From: a virus
Virus record (IMG/VR): IMGVR_UViG_3300009068_002116
Coordinates: 1-20,799 of that record
Reading direction: 5' to 3' (one strand)
Length of the DNA: 20,799 bases
Below are positions 5,406 to 18,821 of the stretch, piece by piece (position 1 is the first letter of the stretch; every line of letters starts with the position of its first letter). The notes below the pieces were generated by a model, which was not told the origin of the DNA, made no database searches, and saw nothing but the letters and a program-made list of their open reading frames with translations. A program made the translations under genes and the position numbers.

Positions 5406-7120
5406 ACTACTATTCTACTAAAATTTTGATACTTTTGAAATTTAATCACTGATTTAAATTTGTCAATCAATTGATCGCCTTTATGTGAAATTACAAACAC
5501 ATTTGTATCATCACTTATGGTATTCAACAAATTCATAACGTAATCCGTACCGTTTGCATCTAATGAGGAGTCAAATACTTCATCCAATAGTAATAGATTG
5601 GTACTTGCACTATTCTTCATCTTTGCAATTGTTCGCCATGTAAATAACAGCGCCAAATCAATTCTTTGCTTTTCACCTTCACTAAAAGATGCATAACTAA
5701 ATTCATCTCTATGTCTAGATTTAATTGTCTCATTAAATGATTCATCTAGTTCAAAGTGGACAAAGAAATCCATTGCTGTTAAATACTTATTTACTAACTT
5801 ATTTATTACCGGCAAGTATTGTCTAATAATTTTAGTTTTAATGCCCGTATCTTTTAATAAAGAACCAGCTGCTTCGTGATAAAACTTATCCTCATTTATC
5901 TTTGATCTATCAGAAACTAAATCTACAATTTCTTTTGCCATTGACTTTAAATTTATTTTCTCATTAGTCAATGATGTTAGCGTGTCATCTTTTTGTTCTA
6001 GATCAGCCATCAATTTTTTAATGTAGCTTTGAGACGCAATCATAGAATTGTTTACTCTCAAAATTGATACTTGAACATTTGACATTGATTTTTTAATATC
6101 CTCAATCTCAGTAAGACGTGTCTCAACTTCTGTAATTTTTTCGTTAATTTGATCTAATGCAGATGTAACTTCTTCAATTTTATGTGTATGTTTTTCAACA
6201 GTTATTGTCTTTAGATCATTGGAAATATTCTGATTACAGGTTGGACAATTGTCGTGTTCCTCGTAAAAATTAATTTCGTTTTTAGCTTTTTTAATTCTAT
6301 CAGTAAGATTCTTATACAGATTATTTAATTCTGTTTTCTTTTTTGCTTGTTCATCAGAATCAGATACACTCAATTCATACACTGCATATATATCTTGTAG
6401 ATCTTCTAATTGTGTAGACAATGCTGCAATTTCTGCAGTTGATTCATCAATCTTAGTTTGGACATCATTTTCACGTTTCTTTTTATCTTCTTCCAACTGA
6501 AGAATGTATCCTTGTTGTACTTTTACTTTGTGCTTTCCGATTTCAATCTTGCCATCTAAATCTTTAATTGCATCCTTTAAAGAATTTATCTTATCCTTAA
6601 GCACAGTATTCATTACAGAAAATATTTGAATATCTAAAATATCCTCAATAATTTCTCTTCGATACCCTAGGGATAATTGCATAAAGGGAGTAAAAGAAGC
6701 GGATCCTAAAATTACAATCTGAGTAAACGATTTATAATTTAATTTTAGAATGCTTTCTTCTAAGTATTTCTGATAATCTCTTGATGCTGCATCTTGATTA
6801 AGAATAACACCGTCGCAATAGATTTCAAAAACATTCGGTTTCATTCCCCGAACAATTCTATAATCTTTTTTACCAATAGAAAATTCTACCTCAACCGCAA
6901 GATTCTTGCCGTTGATAGTATTCATTAGTTGCGGTTTATTAATACTACGAAATGGTTTATTAAAAAGACCAAAGCAAATAGCATCAAGAATTGTACTTTT
7001 GCCGGCACCGTTTTCACCAACAATTAAAGTAGATGGCGATGCCTCAAATTCTATTTCTGTAAATTGGCCGCCGGTTGATAAGAAATTTTTCCATCGTATT
7101 TTTGTAAATCTTATACTCAT
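5402..7120 (-). CDS. 46: gp46 recombination nuclease subunit, SMC/Rad50-like ATPase
   Basis: The Rad50/SbcC homologue of T4-like phages. With gp47 it resects DNA ends for recombination-dependent replication and helps degrade host DNA. At 572 residues it is close to T4 gp46 (560). Walker A GENGAGKST lies at 35-43, a zinc hook CPTC at 292-295 sits between two coiled-coil arms (about 170-290 and 300-410), the ABC signature FSEGE is at 479-483 and Walker B LLLLDE at 509-514. The start overlaps the gp47 stop by four bases (ATGA), as expected for two subunits made in fixed ratio. Confidence 0.97.
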   Translation of the reverse strand: MSIRFTKIRWKNFLSTGGQFTEIEFEASPSTLIVGENGAGKSTILDAICFGLFNKPFRSINKPQLMNTINGKNLAVEVEFSIGKKDYRIVRGMKPNVFEIYCDGVILNQDAASRDYQKYLEESILKLNYKSFTQIVILGSASFTPFMQLSLGYRREIIEDILDIQIFSVMNTVLKDKINSLKDAIKDLDGKIEIGKHKVKVQQGYILQLEEDKKKRENDVQTKIDESTAEIAALSTQLEDLQDIYAVYELSVSDSDEQAKKKTELNNLYKNLTDRIKKAKNEINFYEEHDNCPTCNQNISNDLKTITVEKHTHKIEEVTSALDQINEKITEVETRLTEIEDIKKSMSNVQVSILRVNNSMIASQSYIKKLMADLEQKDDTLTSLTNEKINLKSMAKEIVDLVSDRSKINEDKFYHEAAGSLLKDTGIKTKIIRQYLPVINKLVNKYLTAMDFFVHFELDESFNETIKSRHRDEFSYASFSEGEKQRIDLALLFTWRTIAKMKNSASTNLLLLDEVFDSSLDANGTDYVMNLLNTISDDTNVFVISHKGDQLIDKFKSVIKFQKYQNFSRIVV

Positions 7121-8172
7121 GCTTCTTCGTAGTGTTGTGCTTCGACATACAATGTCTTAAGCAATGTCTTCAATCGTTCTTTGTCCGCATCTGTTTCAAT
7201 ACTATCAACATAACCAGTAAGCAATGTCATAGTATCTTCTAGATCAATAGCATCATCCAATGCCTCAGATTCAAACTCGGAAAAATCCTCAATAATTTTA
7301 ACTTCAAGTGGATCTTGTTTATAGATACGTTCTATAAACTTATCAAACTTGTGAAAGTCTCTCTTCTTAACTACAACAATTTTTATATGTTGTGCCTCAA
7401 AAGTTTTAACATCAATAGTATCAGGATCCGTTGTTTCATCATTATAATAATACTTTGTAAAAATAGTATATGGATTTTGTACAAACTCTAAAGAATGATC
7501 TTCAGTATCAAAGATAAAGAATCCTTTTGGATCGCTTTCATCATTCCATGTTAATTCGTAAGGAGTACCTAGATATGAGATATTTCCCTCACTAGATTTA
7601 GTATGAAAATGTCCGCTTAATACGTGTTTGTACTGTTTAAAATAACTACGATCAAATCCTTCATGGTTATCAATACCCCGCATCATTTGAAATCCGGAAA
7701 TTTCAAAATGTCCGATACAATAATCAGAAGAACTTGCATCCATAAATGCAGCAATTTCTGTTTCGTTATCTTTGCAAATCCAGGGAATTATATCAAACTG
7801 AACACCATCAAATTTTATTATACCTGGCTCTTGGAAAATAGTAATGTTACCATAGTCCTTTAACAATAAATCTGGAGAATTTACGCTAAGACTTTCTTTC
7901 CAGAATATATCATGATTGCCAACCAATGTAATTAGTTTAATACCATTGGCTTCCATGGGATCAAAGAAATACCGTCGGGATTCTGCAAGCGAATGAAAAT
8001 TAATATACTTCCTGCGATCAAATAGATCTCCTAATTGAACAACAGTATCAATATTGTTGTCTTTTAGATACGGAAATAATATATTGGTATAAAATTTTTC
8101 ATAGTACGCATGAAATGCTTTTGAGTCATTTCTAACTCCAAAATGCGTATCTCCCAACAAACAAATCTTCAT
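7117..8172 (-). CDS. 47: gp47 recombination nuclease subunit, Mre11-like
   Basis: The Mre11/SbcD homologue and partner of gp46. At 351 residues it is near T4 gp47 (339). The metallophosphoesterase signature is complete: GDTH (D8, H10), GDLFDRR (D49), GNHD (N86, H87), H155 in GHFE, and GHFH (H188, H190), which together hold two metal ions. The C-terminal 100 residues are acidic and would form the cap and gp46-binding part. Only one base separates it from the queD stop, so it is probably read from the queD promoter. Confidence 0.97.
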   Translation of the reverse strand: MKICLLGDTHFGVRNDSKAFHAYYEKFYTNILFPYLKDNNIDTVVQLGDLFDRRKYINFHSLAESRRYFFDPMEANGIKLITLVGNHDIFWKESLSVNSPDLLLKDYGNITIFQEPGIIKFDGVQFDIIPWICKDNETEIAAFMDASSSDYCIGHFEISGFQMMRGIDNHEGFDRSYFKQYKHVLSGHFHTKSSEGNISYLGTPYELTWNDESDPKGFFIFDTEDHSLEFVQNPYTIFTKYYYNDETTDPDTIDVKTFEAQHIKIVVVKKRDFHKFDKFIERIYKQDPLEVKIIEDFSEFESEALDDAIDLEDTMTLLTGYVDSIETDADKERLKTLLKTLYVEAQHYEEA

Positions 8173-8173
8173 A

Positions 8174-8647
8174 TTAATCTTTAAATTCGTTATCTTCTCT
8201 ATGTCCTACACGCATTGCCATGTTAGCATCAGTTTCTCTTACTTGCACTTTGCAACACCATACACGATCCTTTTCACCATAGTTAGGTAAGAAAATTGTG
8301 TTTATGTATTCATAAAGAAAATCGGCAATGCCCTCACATCCAGTCTTTTCAACTTCTGTAATCTTTGCTAATTTTAATGTGCCTAGATGCAATAGATGTT
8401 CTCGCATTGGATCATCCTGTGCAACTAACAATGTGTGGTCAAACCAGTCTTCAAGTAGACCTTTAAGTGGTTTTAGTCCACCAAAGTCCATACACCAATT
8501 GCGGGCATCTAATGTATCACACTCAAATTCTAAATGGAATGAAAGTGCATATCCATGAATTAAATTGCAATGACTATCTGCACGCCATTGTCTATATGCT
8601 ACGGGACCAATCTGATTATAAGTTTTTGTAGAAATGTATTTTGCCAT
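8174..8647 (-). CDS. queD: QueD-like 6-carboxytetrahydropterin synthase with altered zinc motif
   Basis: Second enzyme of the 7-deazaguanine pathway: turns dihydroneopterin triphosphate (the FolE product) into 6-carboxytetrahydropterin. In its 157 residues the family pattern is clear: WRADSH (H26), then C27, HGY (31-33), DFGGLKP (54-60), DH (70-71), CEG (104-106, where the family usually has a conserved Glu) and VRET (catalytic Glu138). In typical QueD the zinc is held by His in the FsaaH block plus both His of HGH; here the second is Tyr33, and the loop between the first His and the catalytic Cys has collapsed. It may bind metal differently. It has its own promoter and a short hairpin at its ribosome site. 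gp47 and gp46 follow at once. Confidence 0.87.
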   Translation of the reverse strand: MAKYISTKTYNQIGPVAYRQWRADSHCNLIHGYALSFHLEFECDTLDARNWCMDFGGLKPLKGLLEDWFDHTLLVAQDDPMREHLLHLGTLKLAKITEVEKTGCEGIADFLYEYINTIFLPNYGEKDRVWCCKVQVRETDANMAMRVGHREDNEFKD

Positions 8648-8656
8648 GTTTATTCT

Positions 8657-8672
8657 CCTATGTTATCATAGG
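8657..8672 (-). promoter_or_regulatory. Hairpin at the queD ribosome binding site
   Basis: CCTATG and CATAGG form a perfect 6-bp stem with a four-base loop. The minus-strand 3' arm runs straight into the Shine-Dalgarno AGGAG (8654-8658), which lies 6 bases before the queD ATG, so the hairpin covers part of the ribosome site. It could tune queD translation; this is inference from position. Confidence 0.5.
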
Positions 8673-8705
8673 CGGCGGAATTTATAAAGCGGGACGATGC
8701 CGGTA

Positions 8706-8748
8706 GACCGCTATGTGATATATTATATATTACTTAAACATAGCGGTC
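8706..8748 (-). promoter_or_regulatory. 11-bp inverted repeat bracketing the queD promoter (possible operator)
   Basis: GACCGCTATGT (8706-8716) and ACATAGCGGTC (8738-8748) are perfect reverse complements separated by 21 bases. The right arm overlaps the -35 box and the left arm sits at the predicted transcription start, with the -10 between them. The arms are 32 bp apart centre to centre, about three helical turns. This looks like two half-sites for a repressor. The right arm lies inside the end of the glycosyltransferase gene. A hairpin terminator is less likely because no T-run follows. Confidence 0.6.
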
Positions 8749-8750
8749 AA
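8722..8750 (-). promoter_or_regulatory. Sigma70 promoter of queD
   Basis: TTGACC (8745-8750), a 17-bp spacer and TATAAT (8722-8727): 11 of 12 consensus positions. It overlaps the 3' end of the upstream glycosyltransferase gene. The transcript would start near 8715 and probably carries queD, gp47, gp46, def and the small gene after it. Confidence 0.8.
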
Positions 8751-9803
8751 TACATTAGCAGAAAAGAATTTTTCCGTTAAGTACGATGCTTGTTTGCGAA
8801 CGTGATACTTATATTGATCGTGATTATTCATGTATTGAACAATTTTATAACATAAGTCTTGTCGATGCACTTCGTATGCTTCAAATGATTCTGTCCATTC
8901 ACTAGGATATTTGAACATATCATTGTACATTTCCGTATAGGATAAACGATCTGGCACCATAGGAATAGCATCTACAATGGCACCTTCGTAACAACTAATA
9001 CCCAATGTTTCTTGTAGGTTTGCACTAAATACAATCTTAGCACGACCTAGCAGTTTGTGATATTCATGTTTATCTAATTGCGTATCTTGACAAACAACAA
9101 ACTCATATTGAGGTAAATGTTTAGCCAAGTCTCGGAAAATTTCAACTTGTTTTTCTGGTGCAAGTCGATGAGGGAACAAAATTAATTCGCGCTTCGGAGT
9201 TGTATTATAGTTTTCTAATGTGTCAACCATATATTCCATCGGCCAACCTGAGCGAACAATCTTACCTTGTTCAATCATAGTGATCTTCCATTCGTCATCC
9301 ACTGTTTCGCTAAATGTCTCAGCAAACAAATCAATATGAAAATCAGTAGCAAAATAGTTATGGTCAATAGCGTGAAAGAAACTTTGTTCGGCATGTCTCA
9401 CCCAAGGAGCATCTCCAATGAGACGACCTAAAAAGTCTTGAGGATCATAACTGCCAGCGTGCCATAGTGCGTGAATAGTTACAGGAATCTGTAACAGCTC
9501 ACTCATGTATTTTAAATTAATAATGCCAGGATGCCAAGCGTCAGTAAATAGAAAGTGATCACCAGCATTAATGGATCCGCTACAAAACAGGCGACCCATC
9601 TGCTCAACTTGACTAGATTTGTATATATTAGTCCCGCCAAAATTAAGGAAAGCACCAGGGGTAGTAACACTAGGAATATTAGTAGGTCCGCATATAACTT
9701 CAATATCCGCTGTCTTTTTAAGTAATTGGGGTACATGATATTTCCATTGTTCAGTGTATCGTGTGTCTACTGCCTCTAAATCAACAATAAATATTTTAGC
9801 CAT
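8730..9803 (-). CDS. GT-B glycosyltransferase (GT4-like)
   Basis: A 357-residue protein when begun at the ATG at 9803; an upstream in-frame TTG at 9857 would add 18 residues but lies deep in the preceding gene. The C-terminal half has the GT4-type nucleotide-sugar domain: LILFPHRLAPEKQ, then KIVFSANLQETLGISCYEGA, an E-x7-E motif that binds the donor sugar nucleotide. The N-terminal half would bind the acceptor. The substrate cannot be told. It overlaps the preceding small gene by eight bases and sits between dpdA and queD, which invites the idea that it acts on a modified base, but surface glycosylation of virion or host is also possible. Confidence 0.85.
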   Translation of the reverse strand: MAKIFIVDLEAVDTRYTEQWKYHVPQLLKKTADIEVICGPTNIPSVTTPGAFLNFGGTNIYKSSQVEQMGRLFCSGSINAGDHFLFTDAWHPGIINLKYMSELLQIPVTIHALWHAGSYDPQDFLGRLIGDAPWVRHAEQSFFHAIDHNYFATDFHIDLFAETFSETVDDEWKITMIEQGKIVRSGWPMEYMVDTLENYNTTPKRELILFPHRLAPEKQVEIFRDLAKHLPQYEFVVCQDTQLDKHEYHKLLGRAKIVFSANLQETLGISCYEGAIVDAIPMVPDRLSYTEMYNDMFKYPSEWTESFEAYEVHRQDLCYKIVQYMNNHDQYKYHVRKQASYLTEKFFSANVLTAMFK

Positions 9804-10218
9804 GTGTTTGTTCAAAGTGAATTCTGCAACCGTTTTCGCCATCTTCTGATACTTCAATTACATAAGCACGTCCAGGCCATTTTGCAATTAATTTATCATA
9901 TAGATCGTTTGCCATCATTTCACATGATTTATAATCCAATTGTAATGTGCCATCGCTATACCAGCGCTCCATAATTCTTTTTGCTTGAATAAATTCAACA
10001 TCTCGATTGTCATGAAATACTTCCATTTCGACCCGAAAATGGAACATATGCCGATGGCGATCTGCAAGAAAACTTACATCAAGCCAATGATCTTCTGGGA
10101 CTCCAAATCGACGTGTTGCCAATGATGGATCTGTTGCGGCATCGGGGTAACGATGAATGCCTTCTTTCTGAAAGGTAACCCAAATAAAACTACTCTTTTT
10201 AACAATACTAGTATTCAT
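9796..10218 (-). CDS. Unknown His-rich small protein in the 7-deazaguanine block
   Basis: A 140-residue protein, started at the ATG at 10218 with AGGA 7 bases upstream; a TTG at 10236 gives a less likely longer form. I do not recognise it with certainty. It carries FLADRHRHMFHF, a His-dense block followed by alternating beta-type residues (RVEMEVF), then DRDVEFIQAK, SCEMMANDLYDKL and a final beta strand AYVIEVSEDGENGCRIHF. This order of a HxH block, an acidic segment, a helix and a last strand with Glu loosely resembles the T-fold of QueD/6-pyruvoyltetrahydropterin synthases, so a distant second T-fold enzyme is possible. It lies 10 bases after dpdA and overlaps the next glycosyltransferase gene. 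Confidence 0.75.
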   Translation of the reverse strand: MNTSIVKKSSFIWVTFQKEGIHRYPDAATDPSLATRRFGVPEDHWLDVSFLADRHRHMFHFRVEMEVFHDNRDVEFIQAKRIMERWYSDGTLQLDYKSCEMMANDLYDKLIAKWPGRAYVIEVSEDGENGCRIHFEQTHG

Positions 10219-10228
10219 AATATAATCC

Positions 10229-11515
10229 TTATGCAAATAAATTTTCTAATGACATCCGAGGCTGATGGCTTACAGATTCAGATTCCATATATTTACCAAC
10301 GTGCTTTTCCCAATGAGAAAAGTCTCCAATATCTTTAACTTCAAACAATGTAGCATACTCATTTTCGCAACCCTTATCTCTACAAAATCTAAGTAACTCG
10401 TCTTTAGATTCTAATAGGGTTGTAACATCAAGTGTGAAATTATGCACATTTGTCAATATGAAACAAAGACGTGCTTTCATAATGTCAATAAACTTGCCGC
10501 CATTTTCAAGATACTTACCTACAGCAATGTTCATTAATTTATGATATTCTTCTGGAGTATATTCGGTACCACAAACACTATTGATTTCATCTACAACTGT
10601 TCTATAGATGTTAGAATATTCTCTGCCCATTTTTACAGATGAGCCGCCATAACCATGTCGTGTTTTTTTACTATACGAGAAATAAAACAATCCATTATCT
10701 AATGACATTGAATGTGTTGTAGAATCATAAGAGATTTCAATGTTCTCATACATTCCAGTCTGACTAAAAACCATATAGGGAAGCATACGACGCAGTGCGC
10801 CTACCCCTAGAATGTGAAGATGAAATGGTTTCTTAAAGGGCATTACCTTAACATAGAATGCTCGTTTAACATCTTCAAGTTGCCCAGTACCTAGTGCAGC
10901 AGATGCCATTGACACACCGCCGATACGATCATGATATGGTGCAGTGATTTCTTCAAGTAAAATATTTGCCCACTCAGCATAAGTCTCATGACAAGCACCT
11001 TGAATGATTGCGAAAGGTCGACAATCACTTTTCATTTCAATAAACTTTTCAATCTGAGATTTAATATTTTGTCCCGTTTGCTTGGCATAACTAGCAAAAT
11101 TATCTCGGTCAAAATATCTACCCTTAGTATCAAGCTTTGCAGACTTGCCACTTGCATTAGTAATTATTACTGGGATCTCATCAAAGGACATTCCAATGTC
11201 TGCATGGGATGCTTGATTCTCATAAACGCTATTACGAACTTCTGGCGAATTAGGAATGCCACGTGTAATAATTTGCAGACCGCCAGAGTCGGCATGTATA
11301 TTTTTAATCGCGGGTCTAAATTTTTGTAGACGTTTTCCAAATTGTTTTTCAGTAAACCCGTTATACAATAATGAGAACTGATGATTATTCATATTATGAA
11401 CAGTCTTACCAATAAGGTCATTGATCATCTGCAATACTGCAGGATCATTACATTGTTCTGCACCAAGACGTAAGTACGCCGGTCCAGAAATTACATATTC
11501 CATCTGTCTGCTCAT
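10229..11515 (-). CDS. dpdA: DpdA-like DNA 7-deazaguanine transglycosylase (TGT superfamily)
   Basis: A 428-residue member of the tRNA-guanine transglycosylase superfamily. Catalytic landmarks are ADSGGLQ (75-81, with the conserved Asp76), SFDE (110-113), IIQGA (170-174), GGVSMAS (199-205), HILGVGALRRMLPYM (234-248) and SYDSTTHS (262-269), whose Asp264 matches the nucleophile position. The C-terminal CxCxxC...H zinc site of true tRNA enzymes is not seen, which fits DpdA, the branch that exchanges guanine in DNA for preQ0-type bases. With FolE, QueD and QueE nearby, DNA modification against host restriction is the best reading (DpdA systems in phages are established). It overlaps the upstream glycosyltransferase stop by four bases and has a perfect sigma70 promoter about 90 bases upstream. 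Confidence 0.87.
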   Translation of the reverse strand: MSRQMEYVISGPAYLRLGAEQCNDPAVLQMINDLIGKTVHNMNNHQFSLLYNGFTEKQFGKRLQKFRPAIKNIHADSGGLQIITRGIPNSPEVRNSVYENQASHADIGMSFDEIPVIITNASGKSAKLDTKGRYFDRDNFASYAKQTGQNIKSQIEKFIEMKSDCRPFAIIQGACHETYAEWANILLEEITAPYHDRIGGVSMASAALGTGQLEDVKRAFYVKVMPFKKPFHLHILGVGALRRMLPYMVFSQTGMYENIEISYDSTTHSMSLDNGLFYFSYSKKTRHGYGGSSVKMGREYSNIYRTVVDEINSVCGTEYTPEEYHKLMNIAVGKYLENGGKFIDIMKARLCFILTNVHNFTLDVTTLLESKDELLRFCRDKGCENEYATLFEVKDIGDFSHWEKHVGKYMESESVSHQPRMSLENLFA

Positions 11516-12879
11516 TCGAATAAACTTTCTAAAGTGCTTGAGGTATTTTGTTCATTGGGAACAAAATTTTTATCTTTTGATAGATAAGTGTGATTGTCTG
11601 TATAGATTATATTATACTTGTGCTTGTTTGTCAATACAGAACGGACATCATCAATAGATAAATCTTTTCTATTTAGATCAGTTATATACTTTTTGTACTG
11701 AACCGTTTCGTATTCGTTAATTTTTGCTTTGCTAGAATTAGACTTTGTTGGTTTGAACAAATCAAATACATTAAACCATTCTCCAACACCATTTAAGTCC
11801 ATGGTCACTACGCGTTCTAATGCGCCAGTATTGTACCAATCAAACGGGCTTTTGTATTGTTCATACAATTTAAGTATTGTACTACTAACATCTTTTTTAT
11901 CTACGCTAAAAAAATCTGTACCATTAAAGTTTTCTAACCAAGACATTCCTTTAAGTGCAACTGTTGGCATATGTCCAATACATTCATAGAATGCTAAGCC
12001 AAAACTTTCTCGTATTGCGGGATTATAAGCAACTCTAGCAGATGTTATAAAATCAACTTTTTCCTGTCCATATATCTCTGAGCGAATTTCAAATTTAGCA
12101 TTAATTTCCTTTAACGCTGCTTCAAATTTTTTCGCACCAGTATCATTTGTAATAATTTTTGCAGGCAATTTTGTTTCTGCAATCATACGAACAAATTCCT
12201 CAGGATTCTTCCTTGGCTCCCAGCGACCAATCCATAATACACCTTCTCTAGATTTAGTATGAGGAGACAGCAATTCTTTTTCCGTCATTTGTATAGGTGT
12301 ATAGTATGCGTCTTTACCTGACAATTTAATCTCATCAACATTTCTACGTGTTTGTGTGCCAATATAAATGCCGTTTACATCCATCAACTTAATAAAAAAT
12401 TCATTGAAAGAATCTGAGAATTTGCTTTTTTGAGGACTGTCTTCCATAAAGACCAAATTCTCGTGATGCGTATAATATATGACTTGTACTGAATCTTGAA
12501 TAGATAGGGAATAGATTGCGGGAAATGATTCCACGGTGTTACAAATAACTACATCGTATAGATTGTCATTTAGAGCAGTCATAAAACATTCTCTAAAATT
12601 AATCATTTTTTCAAAGTTATATGAATCCTCAAACATAAAAGTTTTGGCGTGTTTACTATAACTAAGTGGCTCTTTAGGTGCAATAACATTAGCACCTTTA
12701 GATTGAAGATATGCACTAAAGTCTTTATTGGATGCCGGTTTATCCAATATAATATCAATTTTTATTCCAATAACAGAACAAGTCTCTACAAAGGATTTTG
12801 CAAATTGTCCGATGCCACCATATGGAATTAAATGCTGATCGCTAATACAAAAAGCAATTCTCCTGTTGTAAATATTCAT
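11512..12879 (-). CDS. GT-B glycosyltransferase (GT4-like)
   Basis: A 455-residue retaining-type glycosyltransferase. The N-terminus has IPYGGIGQFAKSF (about 18-30), a glycine-rich loop typical of GT4 enzymes. The donor domain shows GVLWIGRWEPRKNPEEF and RESFGLAFYECIG, the E-x7-E motif. It is longer than the second GT-B enzyme downstream and does not look like a simple duplicate. It starts one base after the exonuclease gene and overlaps the dpdA start by four bases (ATGA), so it is translationally tied to dpdA. The acceptor is unknown: a modified DNA base or a surface structure are both open. Its last third hides the dpdA promoter. Confidence 0.87.
   Translation of the reverse strand: MNIYNRRIAFCISDQHLIPYGGIGQFAKSFVETCSVIGIKIDIILDKPASNKDFSAYLQSKGANVIAPKEPLSYSKHAKTFMFEDSYNFEKMINFRECFMTALNDNLYDVVICNTVESFPAIYSLSIQDSVQVIYYTHHENLVFMEDSPQKSKFSDSFNEFFIKLMDVNGIYIGTQTRRNVDEIKLSGKDAYYTPIQMTEKELLSPHTKSREGVLWIGRWEPRKNPEEFVRMIAETKLPAKIITNDTGAKKFEAALKEINAKFEIRSEIYGQEKVDFITSARVAYNPAIRESFGLAFYECIGHMPTVALKGMSWLENFNGTDFFSVDKKDVSSTILKLYEQYKSPFDWYNTGALERVVTMDLNGVGEWFNVFDLFKPTKSNSSKAKINEYETVQYKKYITDLNRKDLSIDDVRSVLTNKHKYNIIYTDNHTYLSKDKNFVPNEQNTSSTLESLFE
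11606..11634 (-). promoter_or_regulatory. Perfect sigma70 promoter for dpdA, inside the glycosyltransferase gene
   Basis: TTGACA (11629-11634), a 17-bp spacer and TATAAT (11606-11611), all 12 positions consensus. A second TATAAT at 11611-11616 would leave only 12 bp and is not the functional one. The transcript would start near 11599, leaving a leader of about 84 bases before the dpdA ATG. Confidence 0.8.
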
Positions 12880-12880
12880 A

Positions 12881-13390
12881 TCAATTACCCAAGATTTTAA
12901 TTAAGTGTTTTGTTTGATGCATTGCGTCATCCAATGCATTGTGATATGTTCCTTGCCGTTCATCAGCAGGAATCCATTTGAATAATGCCTTTACAGTTCT
13001 GTAGCAACGATCGTCCCATGGATGCCATGGTGGTTTTCTGCCTGTATTGAAATAAGCATTTCCAAGAATAGTATTATCAAATACTGCACCATTGCCCCAC
13101 AAAGGAAGACTCTTTGGACCAAACCAAATTTCGAATTTGTCTAGTGCTTCTTGTAGTGAGATGTTGTTTTTTGTTAACTCTCGGAATGCTTCTTTGTTTT
13201 GCTTTGACCACCATTCAACAGTATCCTTGGCAATATGCAGGCCTGCTTCTTTGCATGACTTTATATCAATAGTGCAGTAAAACGTATCCAGTATTTTATC
13301 CCCTTCAAATTTTACTGCACCAATGGAACAAATTGCCGCATTTGATCTTGTTGACATTGTCTCCAAATCAACCATTACGTTTATAGTCAT
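12881..13390 (-). CDS. DEDDh 3'-5' exonuclease (Rv2179c-like)
   Basis: A 169-residue exonuclease of the DnaQ-like fold, closest in pattern to the Rv2179c-like 3'-5' exoribonuclease family that many phages carry. The acidic residues are visible: VDLET (D8, E10), AVFDNT (D105) and YHNALDDA (H150, D154), giving the DEDDh set. It is smaller than T4 DexA (227 residues), which is related in motif. The start overlaps the folE stop by four bases (ATGA), so it is co-translated with folE. Its role may be nucleotide recycling or RNA processing; DNA is also possible. Confidence 0.85.
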
Positions 13391-14076
13391 TTTGAACGGG
13401 CGATGCTTAAGAATTCATTTCGTAGTGCAGGATCAGTTTTAAATCCGCCACCTAATTTACTTGTAACTGTAGAGCTACCAGTATCTTCTACGCCTCGGCT
13501 CTTAACACAGTAATGCTGAGCATCAAGCATAACTGCAACATTATCTGTTTCCAAGATAAATTGCAGGGCATGGTAAATTTGTTCTGTCAAGCGTTCTTGA
13601 ATCTGAGGACGCTTGCTAAAGTATTCTACGATACGATTGATTTTACTCAATCCAAGAACTTTATCTTTTGGGACATAAGCAACAGTTGCCAATCCATCAA
13701 TAACTACAAAATGATGTTCACAATTACTTTGGACATTAACATTGCGCTCAACGACCATTTCATTATATTTCATCTTGTTATCAACTGTGGTACATTTAGG
13801 GAATGCGTCATAATCAAGTCCCCAAAAGATTTCATTGACATACATTCGGGCAACACGTTTTGGAGTATCACATAAACTATCATCTTCTAAATCAAGGCCC
13901 AGCACTCGCATAATTTCTGAAAAGTGAGACTCAATTACTTCAATCTTTGTTTTGCGATCAAGATCTAATCGAGTATTAGGATCTAATCGGGTAGGAGTCT
14001 CGACTCCCATTGCAACTAAATGCTGATGAACTTTTTGCCCCAATTCTGGGTCTGTTTTTGTCTTGTTATATGACAT
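13387..14076 (-). CDS. folE: GTP cyclohydrolase I
   Basis: Converts GTP to dihydroneopterin triphosphate, the entry step to both folate and 7-deazaguanines. In 229 residues it shows the zinc ligands Cys119 and His122 in NCEHHF and Cys190 in QHYCVKSRG, plus the conserved [13 protein letters not shown] and [11 protein letters not shown] blocks. The first 40 residues are an extra polar segment with a short [10 protein letters not shown] near-repeat. AAGGA lies upstream of the ATG. In this phage the neighbours queE, queD and dpdA say that the product feeds base modification rather than folate. Confidence 0.96.
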
Positions 14077-14115
14077 TTGAATCCTTCCTTACACGGATAT
14101 GATGATTGAAAATTT

Positions 14116-14133
14116 TGTTACCTTTGTGTAACA
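14116..14133 (-). other. Small hairpin between queE and folE
   Basis: TGTTAC and GTAACA form a 6-bp stem with a six-base loop, 8 bases beyond the queE stop; the minus strand continues AAAATTTT. It may be a weak terminator or a message-end structure. No clear promoter for folE was found after it. Confidence 0.35.
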
Positions 14134-14140
14134 TTATTAT

Positions 14141-14998
14141 TTATGTTCCCCACTCATTCTTAAAAAGTGGTACTTGTAAACGATCGCTATATCGAAGACC
14201 ATTCTTCATTGCCATTTCTGCAACCTTTCGATTGTTCATAGCATAAACGCTTTCGACACCGCCTACCGGCATCAAATAAACAGGACCTTTAAACCCTGCA
14301 GATTTATATAGTTCAATTGCTTCCATTGCTTCTTCAGCATCTTCTTCAGTTGCAACTACAAACTTAAGATAAGTGTATCCAACGTCTTGATATGCTGATA
14401 CAATGTCGGGGCAAATTGCTTCTTCCCATTTTTCGCCGCTGACACTTAATTTTGGACTAACAGAAAATGTTAGTGCATTATATCCTCTGTCTTTACGACC
14501 AAGAGACCAATTAAGAAGAAATTGTCTGAATTCAGATGACAATGCCTGTGTACCATTTGTTTCAAACGTAATCTCTTTTAAAGATTTCATTTTTTCATTA
14601 TCTAGAAGATCTGGATACGATCGTTGCCAACCAAGTAATGGTTCGCCGCCCGTTATTACAAGATGTTCGTCTTCCCATTTCTTGTACGGAAGTATATCCA
14701 TAATTGTATCGGCAATGTTATCAGTATCAAGTACAGGGCTAAGATGCTTAAAACGAGGATCCCAGCTAGCGTAAGAATCGCACCCTGTACTAACAAGAGG
14801 CAAATCTTTATAGGAAAGAAACTTACGTACGTCAGCCGCGATATAATCAACTTCATTGCTAAATTCCCCTTTTGGCATTCCAAATCCACTACAAGTGAAG
14901 TTACAACCAAATGTACGAAGAAAAACACTAGGTACGCCCATGTAGCGGCCTTCACCTTGTATACTATAAAACAATTCTGCAACTTTAAGCTTTGCCAT
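14141..14998 (-). CDS. queE: QueE-like radical SAM 7-carboxy-7-deazaguanine synthase with split cysteine motif
   Basis: Converts 6-carboxytetrahydropterin to 7-carboxy-7-deazaguanine by radical SAM chemistry. In 285 residues from the ATG at 14998 (GGAG 5 bases upstream; the TTG before it is not needed) the hallmarks are SIQGEG (about 12-17), VFLRTFGCNFTC and TGGEPLLGW (SAM-binding GGEP). Normal family members hold the iron-sulphur cluster with CxxxCxxC. Here only CNFTC (Cys32, Cys36) is present, and the third Cys appears about 37 residues later in TGCDSYASW (Cys73), a segment that looks like the canonical CDSxxTW ending. So about 34 extra residues seem inserted in the cluster loop. The gene has its own sigma70 promoter overlapping the gp55 end. 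Confidence 0.88.
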   Translation of the reverse strand: MAKLKVAELFYSIQGEGRYMGVPSVFLRTFGCNFTCSGFGMPKGEFSNEVDYIAADVRKFLSYKDLPLVSTGCDSYASWDPRFKHLSPVLDTDNIADTIMDILPYKKWEDEHLVITGGEPLLGWQRSYPDLLDNEKMKSLKEITFETNGTQALSSEFRQFLLNWSLGRKDRGYNALTFSVSPKLSVSGEKWEEAICPDIVSAYQDVGYTYLKFVVATEEDAEEAMEAIELYKSAGFKGPVYLMPVGGVESVYAMNNRKVAEMAMKNGLRYSDRLQVPLFKNEWGT

Positions 14999-15026
14999 CA
15001 AGACTCCAATAATTTAATTAACACTT

Positions 15027-15056
15027 ATTATATAGTAAATTAGTCATCCATGTCAA
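15027..15056 (-). promoter_or_regulatory. Sigma70 promoter of queE
   Basis: TTGACA (15051-15056), an 18-bp spacer and TATAAT (15027-15032). The -35 box lies inside the last codons of gp55. The transcript would start near 15020 and could carry queE, folE, the exonuclease and the first GT-B gene. Confidence 0.8.
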
Positions 15057-15654
15057 GAGGATTGTCTGAATCTATTTCAACTTTTTTAACCTTTTTAGGG
15101 ATATTTATGTTGCGTTTTTCAATATCAATATTGTCCATTTGCCGTTTTAAGTAATCCAAAAATTGGTGACTAAATTCACCGTTATCATGATCTTGCAAGA
15201 TCAAGGAATCAATATCCATATTCTCAATCATCTTATACTTAGTGGCCTGTTGTTTCTTTTCCTTTTGAATTCTGCGAATAAAGGCAAAGTAAATAATCTG
15301 AGTATAATATGCAAATGGATTTGAAGATTTACTTGGGTCAAATTTTTGTACTGCAGTTAAACAATTTTCAATCCCGTCCGAAATCATATCATCTTTAAAA
15401 GTATAATTAATAAAATTAGATTTGTATGAAAGGTGTGTAGCAATCTTTATAAAACATTCGCCAATATATCTAGTAACAACGGGGGTTTCTTCTCCTCGTT
15501 CTTTAGCAGCATCGACTTGTTCTTTATATGCTATTAAGGCTTCTAAAAACTCTTTATTATTTACATAATGTGCAGTAACCGAAGGTTTCTTTTCCTTAAT
15601 GGAAAGTTTTCCTTCGTCTGATTCTATTATTCCCATAGTCGTGTCTTTCATCAT
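15040..15654 (-). CDS. 55: gp55 late-transcription sigma factor
   Basis: The T4 late sigma factor, which directs host RNA polymerase to TATAAATA promoters. In 204 residues it matches T4 gp55 (185) in HYVNNKEFLEALI near the start, in KDDMISDGIENCLTAVQKFD and in NPFAYYTQIIYFAFIRRIQKEKK, the sigma-2-like core. In T4 the C-terminus ends in a hydrophobic motif that binds the sliding clamp; here the tail is DSDNPLDMDD and no such motif is visible. The start is one of two adjacent ATGs (15654 or 15651); MGIIES at 15636 is an alternative. It overlaps the preceding gene by 59 bases. Two matching late promoters are present in the window. Confidence 0.95.
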   Translation of the reverse strand: MMKDTTMGIIESDEGKLSIKEKKPSVTAHYVNNKEFLEALIAYKEQVDAAKERGEETPVVTRYIGECFIKIATHLSYKSNFINYTFKDDMISDGIENCLTAVQKFDPSKSSNPFAYYTQIIYFAFIRRIQKEKKQQATKYKMIENMDIDSLILQDHDNGEFSHQFLDYLKRQMDNIDIEKRNINIPKKVKKVEIDSDNPLDMDD

Positions 15655-17936: not shown

Positions 17937-18821
17937 TTAACCAATTTTGATAATTTGATTAGGATTACCTTGGAAGTTGAAAGAACCGAAGTGGTTTAGC
18001 GAGATTGACGGATCAAGCCAAATATCACCGCCAATACCTTGCCAACGACGACTAAAGGTATAATCCTCAGACAAATAACGACGATCTTTAGGATCAATCA
18101 TTGTGTCAAAGAATGCATAGAAAAAGTCTTGCAAATCTGGAGGAGTATTCAAATCGTTGTTATATTTGAGTTCCGGATATGCTGCAATCATCTTGTCAAT
18201 TGCTTCGCGCTTAATCATCATAAATCCTGTAGCGCCGTCATGCAATTTGATAACGCCACTTTCAATAGCAATTTGCTTCATATCTGCATTAACAAATTTA
18301 AAGTTAATAGCATAATCACTTCCTGAAGCTGCGATCATTCTATCGTCCATAGGGGCCTGTCCATTAGACAAAACCGCATCACGGATACGTTGCCAGTTAA
18401 CACCCTTCTTAGGATATGCACCAACGCATACTTCTTTATTGTGTGCAATAAGTTTCAAGACATCTTCAACTTGAAATTCAATGTCAGCATCAATAAACAA
18501 TAGACGAGTATAGTTGCTTTGCAAAAAATATGCAACTAAAACATTTCGAGCACGAGTAACAAGAGACTCATTTGCAATTGTTCCAAATGCAACTGGAATT
18601 TGATGTTGGTTGAAAAATGTCAATGTGCGAACCATTGAACGGAAATACGCTTCTGTTAGCATACCACCATAACAAGGGGTTGCAATAAAAAGTCGTTCTT
18701 TGCGAAGATCTTCAATGTTTATTTGAAGTTGACTTTGTTGGTTTTCTGCTGGTGCGGCAGGTTTATTAAATTTTGGCACCGGTACTTTCGGAATGTTTTT
18801 CAAAGGGTTGTTTTTAGCCAT
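17937..18821 (-). CDS. GT-A-type glycosyltransferase
   Basis: A 294-residue putative glycosyltransferase. After a Pro/Lys-rich linker (1-35) the domain opens with RLFIATPCYGGML, contains the nucleotide-binding run ESLVTRARNVLVAYFL and the DxD motif LLFIDADIEF (Asp111, Asp113) that binds metal and sugar nucleotide. YLSEDYTFSRRW near the C-terminus resembles the catalytic EDxxF..R segment of GT2-like enzymes. It is unlike the two GT-B enzymes lower in the window. GGAG precedes the ATG. Located between a tail gene and uvsY, it is probably read from the late promoter and may decorate virion proteins, but the acceptor is unknown. Confidence 0.85.
   Translation of the reverse strand: MAKNNPLKNIPKVPVPKFNKPAAPAENQQSQLQINIEDLRKERLFIATPCYGGMLTEAYFRSMVRTLTFFNQHQIPVAFGTIANESLVTRARNVLVAYFLQSNYTRLLFIDADIEFQVEDVLKLIAHNKEVCVGAYPKKGVNWQRIRDAVLSNGQAPMDDRMIAASGSDYAINFKFVNADMKQIAIESGVIKLHDGATGFMMIKREAIDKMIAAYPELKYNNDLNTPPDLQDFFYAFFDTMIDPKDRRYLSEDYTFSRRWQGIGGDIWLDPSISLNHFGSFNFQGNPNQIIKIG

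Follow-up and report, generated by a model that had tools for sequence, protein, structure and literature searches.

The DNA analysed here is the whole of IMG/VR virus record IMGVR_UViG_3300009068_002116, a viral record of 20,799 bases (hereafter the window). It raises the question of how a T4-like phage uses 7-carboxy-7-deazaguanine (CDG), for which it carries the synthesis genes together with a DpdA-like transglycosylase, when QueC is not found in the window. A preliminary description of this stretch had drawn attention to that gap, and the genes that it observed are confirmed. They lie in a modification block at 8174-15001 on the minus strand, between gp47-like and gp55-like genes. We favour, with moderate confidence, a reading of the block as a module for DNA hypermodification after replication, in which a clamp-tethered exchange of guanine for a 7-deazaguanine is followed by glycosylation. 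This reading draws on a protein, p146, found where related phages have QueC, on two glycosyltransferase-like (GT) genes linked to it, and on polymerase-like C-terminal tails of DpdA and one of the GTs. The block and its borders are laid out as follows.

15040-15654, minus strand: gp55-like late sigma factor, bordering the block upstream; the name is based on resemblance and synteny, with no profile search
14141-15001, minus strand: QueE-like radical S-adenosylmethionine (SAM) enzyme, 286 amino acids, start at TTG 15001 or ATG 14998; predicted to convert 6-carboxytetrahydropterin (CPH4) to CDG
13387-14076, minus strand: FolE, GTP cyclohydrolase I, 229 amino acids (NF006824)
12881-13390, minus strand: Rv2179c-like 3'-5' exonuclease, 169 amino acids (PF16473, 5.2e-46; phrog_255), with a 4-base overlap with FolE
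11512-12879, minus strand: GT1, GT-B-like glycosyltransferase, 455 amino acids, C-terminal tail TLESLFE
10229-11515, minus strand: DpdA2-type DNA transglycosylase, 428 amino acids, with a 4-base overlap with the end of GT1, C-terminal tail SLENLFA
9796-10236, minus strand: p146, QueD-fold protein, 146 amino acids from TTG, with an ATG at 10218 (phrog_17812, an unnamed family)
8730-9857, minus strand: GT2, glycosyltransferase-like, 375 amino acids from TTG; the likely start is ATG 9803, overlapping p146
8174-8647, minus strand: QueD-like 6-carboxytetrahydropterin synthase, 157 amino acids, HGY variant (PF01242, phrog_2389)
7117-8172, minus strand: gp47-like recombination nuclease subunit, bordering the block downstream; the name is based on resemblance and synteny, with no profile search

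Gene content and conservation of the block

All of these genes lie on the minus strand, and several adjoining genes of the block overlap by a few bases in an operon-like manner. The preliminary description had placed the modification genes throughout a T4 core region, interleaved with GTs and an exonuclease; the interleaving holds, whereas the genes are not spread but form one compact block, and p146 (9796-10236) had been left out. The assignment to a T4-like phage stands. The gene order is T4-like, and the major capsid protein has 65.7% identity to that of Methylophilales phage Melnitz. In T4, a-gt lies between genes 47 and 55 on one strand (47 - a-gt - 55), so the block occupies the slot of the T4 alpha-glucosyltransferase.

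A search of the phage collection with the window at the DNA level gave no match, and a scan of IMG/VR with DpdA as query gave 60 loci. The order UvsW, gp55, QueE, FolE, exonuclease, GT1, DpdA, p146, GT2, QueD, gp47, gp46 is kept in the first three (L001-L003), whose DpdA proteins are 98-99% identical; L003 is located in a 202,665-bp sister contig (G001). Most of the other loci show the same order with modest changes. The exonuclease adjoins FolE in most, not all, relatives, and L022, L027-L029 and others have a diverged FolE and no exonuclease match. Because the block order is found again in dozens of IMG/VR contigs, it is not due to chance. Parts of the module have relatives in hundreds of environmental stretches, and several isolated phages have them too. 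Each of the three IMG/VR scans used below kept its 80 best relatives, from totals of 418, at least 596 and at least 469, so that close relatives are favoured and near-duplicates are included.

The genes named earlier for the route from GTP to CDG, FolE, QueE and QueD, are confirmed by profile or PHROG matches of all three, which share the minus strand. FolE scores 322.7 bits with NF006824, above the cut-off of 202, and also passes TIGR00063. QueD passes the Pfam PTPS family PF01242 (56.6 bits, cut-off 22.4) and matches phrog_2389 (1.2e-40), falls below the TIGR03367 cut-off (35.4 vs 89.25), and has C27, D70, H71, E105 and E138 invariant in 16 homologues. QueE matches phrog_2076 (2e-54) and passes PF04055 (30.5 bits, cut-off 29.5), lies below the QueE equivalog cut-offs, and has C33 and C37 invariant and C74 nearly invariant in 23 homologues. 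The second and third radical-SAM cysteines of QueE (14141-15001), C37 and C74, are separated by 36 residues, a long spacing common to most T4-like QueE homologues and not seen in the QueE of ACP17 or Phosso. The phage QueD (8174-8647; also in L092 and L104) has HGY where canonical QueD has HGH, the first His often being missing, and PA5oct carries HGH and HGY paralogues approximately 2 kb apart. A dependence of the HGY variant on p146 was ruled out, as Moby combines an HGY QueD with QueC and has no p146 match.

DpdA matches phrog_10773 (6.5e-98), an unnamed family, with no Pfam match at E up to 1 and no match in a PDB sequence search with its profile. By tblastn it matches KVP40 (E 7e-49) and 6E35.1a (E 2e-51), with 83% of the query covered in both cases, as well as ACP17 and BUCT-ZZ01, and the DpdA of Moby is also homologous. 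The conserved aspartates pointed out earlier are invariant in 17 homologues: D76 (HADSGGLQ) and D264 (SYDSTTH) are the candidate catalytic residues, which we take to be equivalent to the catalytic Asp pair of tRNA-guanine transglycosylase (TGT). The match to the tRNA TGT model TIGR00430 is weak (21.7 bits, cut-off 306.75), and the CxCxxC zinc motif of Tgt is absent. On these two grounds a tRNA TGT identity was ruled out. DpdA is supported as a DpdA2-type enzyme, of the DNA rather than the tRNA type. Nor does DpdA group with tRNA TGTs, judged by its homology to KVP40 and 6E35.1a and its 21.7-bit score, with no tree built. It is scarcely credible, therefore, that the genes boost queuosine precursor for host tRNA with DpdA as a tRNA enzyme; the polymerase-like tail of DpdA and the failure to find QueC also speak against this, whereas phages that have the pathway without DpdA may indeed boost tRNA queuosine (PMC6884629). 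Deazaguanines measured in phages with the same DpdA subfamily (PMC12028318, PMC6884629) support guanine exchange by DpdA.

p146 and QueC

The 15 loci found with KVP40 QueC or Moby DpdA as queries, KVP40 and Moby themselves included, all contain QueC together with a TGT-like gene (13 of the DpdA2 type and two of the phiST type), and none of the 15 has a match to p146, GT1, GT2 or GalE. In KVP40 and Moby, QueC lies close to a homologous DpdA. The reverse holds on the p146 side. No QueC match (PF06508) over the cut-off was found in 21 records, namely 15 IMG/VR contigs, including G001 (202,665 bp), and six p146 isolates, the completeness of the contigs not being established; X1 gave one match under the cut-off (16.2 bits). 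Twenty further large contigs yielded one weak match (G029, 23.5 bits), over the cut-off only with its neighbours. A local QueC profile, built from two sequences only, matched 0 of 80 loci in each of the three sets anchored by p146, GT1 and GT2. Among six more p146 isolates, QueC was not found in five, and Vibrio phage D479 has one distal match to part of the profile (32.8 bits). D479 (L071, 8989-9363) carries p146 and a short TGT-like gene, recognized by eye, after FolE. It shares neighbour genes with KVP40, where DpdA, a QueF-like gene and QueC stand at the place of p146 after FolE.

CDG thus appears to go one of two ways, p146 or QueC. The preliminary description had left room for QueC elsewhere in the genome, and the search could be extended beyond the window to the sister contig, again with none over the cut-off. 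It had also offered host QueC or direct use of CDG by DpdA, which would give dPreQ0 or dCDG. Modification with CDG has been raised for phage Bipper, which lacks QueC (Hutinet 2019; PMC6884629). We nevertheless consider both routes quite improbable here, as p146 replaces QueC in several lineages and D479 has p146 after FolE where KVP40 has DpdA, the QueF-like gene and QueC. Given their mutual exclusion in the loci examined, the QueC gap is best explained by p146, and host QueC or direct CDG use was dropped as the leading explanation.

p146 has no Pfam or NCBIfam match and belongs to a PHROG family of unassigned function. Its AlphaFold2 model (pLDDT 86) has E. coli QueD (4ntk) as the top Foldseek match (E 3.1e-5), and VIA gave Z 11.9 to 2dtt (root-mean-square deviation 2.1, 93 residues), with dihydroneopterin aldolases nearly equal (Z 10.7); hhalign to QueD gave a probability of 88. 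The predicted fold is the T-fold of QueD, and the nearest solved structures to the model are QueD and PTPS. Residues H28, H61, H63, E106 and E131 are invariant in 25 homologues. H61 and H63 (HRH) align weakly (E 0.5) with the HGH pair of the PTPS PH0634. By the general pattern of the QueD family, the positions of the HGH pair would be zinc ligands and E131 the base-holding Glu. The catalytic residues of QueD, a Cys and an Asp-His pair, have no conserved counterpart in these 25 homologues, whereas the window QueD keeps C27, D70 and H71.

p146 is also homologous to CGPG_00067 of Cellulophaga phage phiST (33% identity, E 1e-7). Work by Cui in 2023 reportedly found 7-deazaguanine DNA in phiST and a CDG decarboxylase, DpdL, which may be CGPG_00067. 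We infer that p146 acts on CDG, and it is probably a DpdL-like CDG decarboxylase. It is unlikely, in our estimate, that p146 instead attaches some other group to CDG, or forms a carboxyl ester together with a GT, so that the sugar acceptor would be a new substituent at position 7. A pterin or deazaguanine ligand would suit the fold and the invariant E131, the histidines of the zinc site are retained without the QueD catalytic residues, and a new substituent would provide the handle for a sugar that plain 7-deazaguanine lacks. Against it, homologues of p146 are also known from loci in which neither GT1 nor GT2 was found, such as that of phiST, for which a decarboxylase has reportedly been described. 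In Chryseobacterium phage MA9V-3 (L072, 8431-9312) and Vibrio phage Bakedbeans (L069, 8233-9384), p146 forms the C-terminal part of longer proteins.

Glycosyltransferase linkage and clamp-like tails

The GTs, which the preliminary description had not counted as members of the module, are conserved in it. We examined this linkage in loci with more than 6 kb on both sides of the anchor (well-flanked loci). All 34 such loci anchored by GT2 have p146 and a TGT of the type found in PA5oct. Around p146 (n = 36), a TGT-like gene was found in 35 and GT2 in 33; around GT1 (n = 37), TGT in 35, p146 in 36 and GT2 in 37. Where partners are missing, the contigs are often short: of the 10 of 80 GT1 loci without TGT, five end within one base of the GT1 match and two (L169 and L181) are short, and the six GT2 loci without p146 all have fewer than 325 bases on the p146 side. 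Fourteen of the 80 p146-anchored loci lack GT2; several are truncated, and 12 of them carry the phiST-type TGT-like protein. A TGT-like gene was counted in 75 p146-anchored loci, and in 12 of these it is of the phiST type.

The PA5oct-type TGT has no Pfam, PHROG or NCBIfam match, but hhalign shows a remote relationship to DpdA2 (probability 96.5, E 8e-10), and DSGG is present in 60 of 60 sequences, so the GT2 link spans two diverged transglycosylase families. The phiST-type protein is TGT-like by eye only (hhalign probability to DpdA2, 1.4). Roos orf78 matches phrog_887 (queuine tRNA-ribosyltransferase) and not DpdA2 by hhalign, and among the loci compared RHph_I1_18 and Bakedbeans have neither a PA5oct-type TGT nor a DpdA2 match. 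In the phage collection, GT2 matches 20 of 50,697 records, and 16 of these have p146, in five lineages (Phosso, PA5oct-like, ACP17, X1 and BUCT-ZZ01). That p146 is seen without GT2, while no flanked GT2 without p146 was seen in the GT2 scan, suits an action of GT2 after p146. These comparisons make a strong case that GT1 and GT2 belong to the p146 branch as conserved module members.

The window and L001-L003 share one type of GT2, and the other GT2 loci have a diverged type approximately 24% identical to it. A UDP-glucose 4-epimerase directly follows the diverged type in 49 of 54 loci, and in three of the remaining five the GT2 frame is cut short. All three epimerases tested pass the curated GalE model (286.9, 267.8 and 320.1 bits; cut-off 262.3). 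That a UDP-sugar epimerase lies within the block speaks for sugar transfer being one of the steps of the pathway.

The C-terminal tails of DpdA (SLENLFA) and GT1 (TLESLFE), shared between the two proteins, resemble that of the G001 DNA polymerase (TLEGLFS). In Synechococcus phage BUCT-ZZ01 (host PCC 7942), which carries p146, DpdA, GT1 and GT2, all three are of an FF type (polymerase TLDDFFS, DpdA SLDSFFD, GT1 SLEDFFND), and the T4 tails are alike (gp43 SLDFLFG, gp55 SLDFLYEAND); we take the latter type to bind the sliding clamp gp45. Among 1,807 open reading frames (ORFs) of at least 100 amino acids from 80 loci and the window, which were chosen largely by DpdA, 117 match the tail pattern: 65 DpdA, 49 GT1 and three DNA polymerases. 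The fairer test is the scan of G001, where four of 523 ORFs match (GT1, DpdA, the DNA polymerase and a 67-amino-acid ORF that is likely spurious) and shuffled tails predict 0.27. Later counts gave 69 of 70 for DpdA2 and, for GT1, 59 of 75 with a strict and 70 of 75 with a loose pattern. No match was found in FolE (77), QueE (77) or p146 (153), and GT2 gave 0 of 58 strict and 3 of 58 loose. The clamp gene gp45 is present in G001 (PF09116), and PF02916 has no match over the cut-off in five records. In T4 itself, the alpha-GT co-purifies with gp45 (PMC13216743). From sequence, the tails of DpdA and GT1 are probably sliding-clamp peptides like the tail of the phage's own DNA polymerase, and both proteins would then bind gp45.

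These data bear on a rival reading that we think rather unlikely, in which the module makes only plain 7-deazaguanine DNA (dDG) and the GTs have a different target, either another base (a hydroxymethylpyrimidine, for instance) or an unrelated glycan. The 14 of 80 p146 loci without GT2, several of them truncated, suggest that the base may be complete without a GT, and G001 has an island of sugar genes. However, GT1 and GT2 are missing from all 15 QueC loci and are nearly always found with p146 and a TGT where the flanks are long, and GT1 has the polymerase-like tail. PF00303, the family of the T4 dCMP hydroxymethylase, is absent from seven of seven IMG/VR contigs, with other routes to such a base remaining. 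A Tet_JBP search gave 0 of 11, and its control was empty as well, so that it is uninformative.

Some further sugar-related genes were noted. A third GT-like gene lies outside the block (17937-18821; phrog_1574, weak Anp1 and GT8 matches). The start of a GDP-mannose 4,6-dehydratase gene occupies positions 1-840 on the minus strand, open at the window end (TIGR01472, 477.6 bits, cut-off 415); in G001 this gene opens a run at approximately 129.5-145.8 kb with several nucleotide-sugar dehydratase or epimerase genes. In Sinorhizobium phage Phosso (L061, L349), the PA5oct-type TGT lies approximately 170 kb from p146 and GT2. In Xanthomonas phage PhiXhv-12 (L081, 9800-10903), a GT2-like gene without p146 adjoins genes annotated as glutamine-fructose-6-phosphate aminotransferase and GlcNAc-malate deacetylase, with a leucyl/phenylalanyl-tRNA-protein transferase annotation further off; this is perhaps a different hypermodification cluster.

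Predicted pathway and known systems

The pathway that we propose is built on gene content and order, on the p146/QueC exclusion in the loci examined, on the GT linkage and on the tails, and each of its enzymatic steps is predicted. FolE, QueD and QueE would convert GTP to CDG by the established pathway. p146, in the place of QueC, would process CDG, most likely by decarboxylating it to 7-deazaguanine. DpdA, tethered to new DNA by its polymerase-like clamp tail, would then swap guanine for this base, and GT1, with the same tail, and GT2 would add sugar to the modified base or to a sugar that it already bears. In relatives, the diverged GT2 is followed by the UDP-glucose 4-epimerase, and a different sugar would result. 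The modification would protect the phage from host restriction. Of these steps, base exchange in DNA is likely; glycosylation of the exchanged base, with the sugar on deazaguanine rather than on another base, is a less certain prediction.

Several observations weigh against this pathway. Position 7 of plain 7-deazaguanine bears neither a hydroxyl nor an amine, which leaves an ordinary O- or N-glycosyl link without a handle there if p146 is a simple decarboxylase; the sugar might be joined by a C-glycosyl bond at C7, through a different atom of the ring, or through a group left or added by p146. The GT names depend on Pfam matches below the cut-off (GT1 16.7 and GT2 15.2 bits to PF00534, cut-off 26.4). 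GT1 has a PDB profile match to TreT (E 0.009), the best structure match of GT2, the GT-B enzyme BshA (E 4.7e-5), comes from a low-confidence model (pLDDT 55.7), and the match between the GT1 and GT2 profiles is weak (probability 60). Linkage is not complete: GT2-like genes without a p146 match occur in four phage records (Erwinia Ep032, PhiXhv-12, -15 and -16; only PhiXhv-12 was inspected), three GT1 loci (L179, L184 and L185) have no TGT despite approximately 10 kb downstream, and L179 and L185 are well flanked. The nucleotide-sugar island of G001 is separate, and some GTs may serve glycans. PA5oct and Phosso encode a PF00303 protein. As for the tails, they are absent from 113 of 113 PA5oct-type TGTs, from the KVP40 DpdA and from the distal GT1-like protein of X1, and the strict pattern is absent from all 137 GT2 proteins with complete ends. 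The T4 alpha-GT also lacks such a C-terminal tail, and gp45 binding is not the main cause of the larger share taken by this enzyme (PMC13216743).

A fuller version of the pathway is possible and is put forward tentatively: the guanine of the genome may be replaced by a sugar-bearing 7-deazaguanine, with the TGT and a GT riding the clamp and with GT and epimerase cassettes swapped between relatives. The sugar would possibly be joined through C7, because decarboxylation by p146 leaves only C-H there. More generally, a branch with p146 in the place of QueC, linked GTs and clamp tails would join the sugar strategy of T4 with the deazaguanine strategy, and sugars added to the exchanged base would amount to a novel form of DNA disguise in viruses. 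Such a branch would provide new DNA-modifying enzymes and allow the success or failure of restriction and type IV systems to be predicted.

The closest known systems are the DpdA2 systems of Schizotequatrovirus (KVP40, nt-1, 6E351A) and Stenotrophomonas phage Moby, which like the window have a homologous DpdA near FolE (KVP40, 6E35.1a and Moby were compared, nt-1 was not). Deazaguanines have been measured in the DNA of nt-1 and 6E351A (PMC6884629, PMC12028318), with approximately 15% of dG as dPreQ1 in 6E351A (PMC12028318), which is taken here as the same phage as record 6E35.1a. KVP40 and Moby have QueC close to DpdA and no p146 match, in contrast to the window type with p146, GT1 and GT2 and no QueC. 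The phiST-type system shares FolE, QueD, QueE, a p146 homologue and the lack of a QueC match with the window, and is said, from Cui's work in 2023, to make dDG via DpdL. It differs in that its neighbouring TGT-like protein (phrog_20335) does not match DpdA2 (hhalign 1.4), and no GT1 or GT2 match was found in the 16-kb phiST locus. In the Pseudomonas jumbo phages PA5oct, Paride and MIJ3, the likeness extends to GT2: the TGT-like gene, GT2 and p146 are adjacent in PA5oct, with QueE nearby. The 540-amino-acid TGT is only remotely related to DpdA2, the PA5oct type of TGT has no polymerase-like tail, and GT1 was not found in these phages. PA5oct had already been noted for a system of deazaguanine synthesis and incorporation (PMC7824862).

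The T4 alpha- and beta-glucosyltransferases are phage GTs for DNA, as the window GTs are predicted to be, and the alpha-GT shares the gene slot and is bound to gp45. They act on hydroxymethylcytosine, and the window GTs have no match to the T4 alpha- or beta-GT Pfam families at E up to 1. Sugars on 7-deazaguanine are known from animal tRNA, where QTMAN and QTGAL add mannose and galactose to the nucleoside (PMC12518689); the sugar acceptors of these enzymes are hydroxyls on the cyclopentene ring, a ring that would be missing from the phage base. No report of glycosylated deazaguanine DNA was found in a literature search judged by titles and abstracts, and as far as that search shows, a sugar-bearing deazaguanine in DNA would be new. 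To our knowledge, the known deazaguanine DNA bases carry small groups, namely cyano, amido, aminomethyl or amidino. As a 7-deazaguanine DNA system, the block is thus of a kind already known; what it adds is the p146 branch, with its clamp-tailed DpdA and linked GTs.

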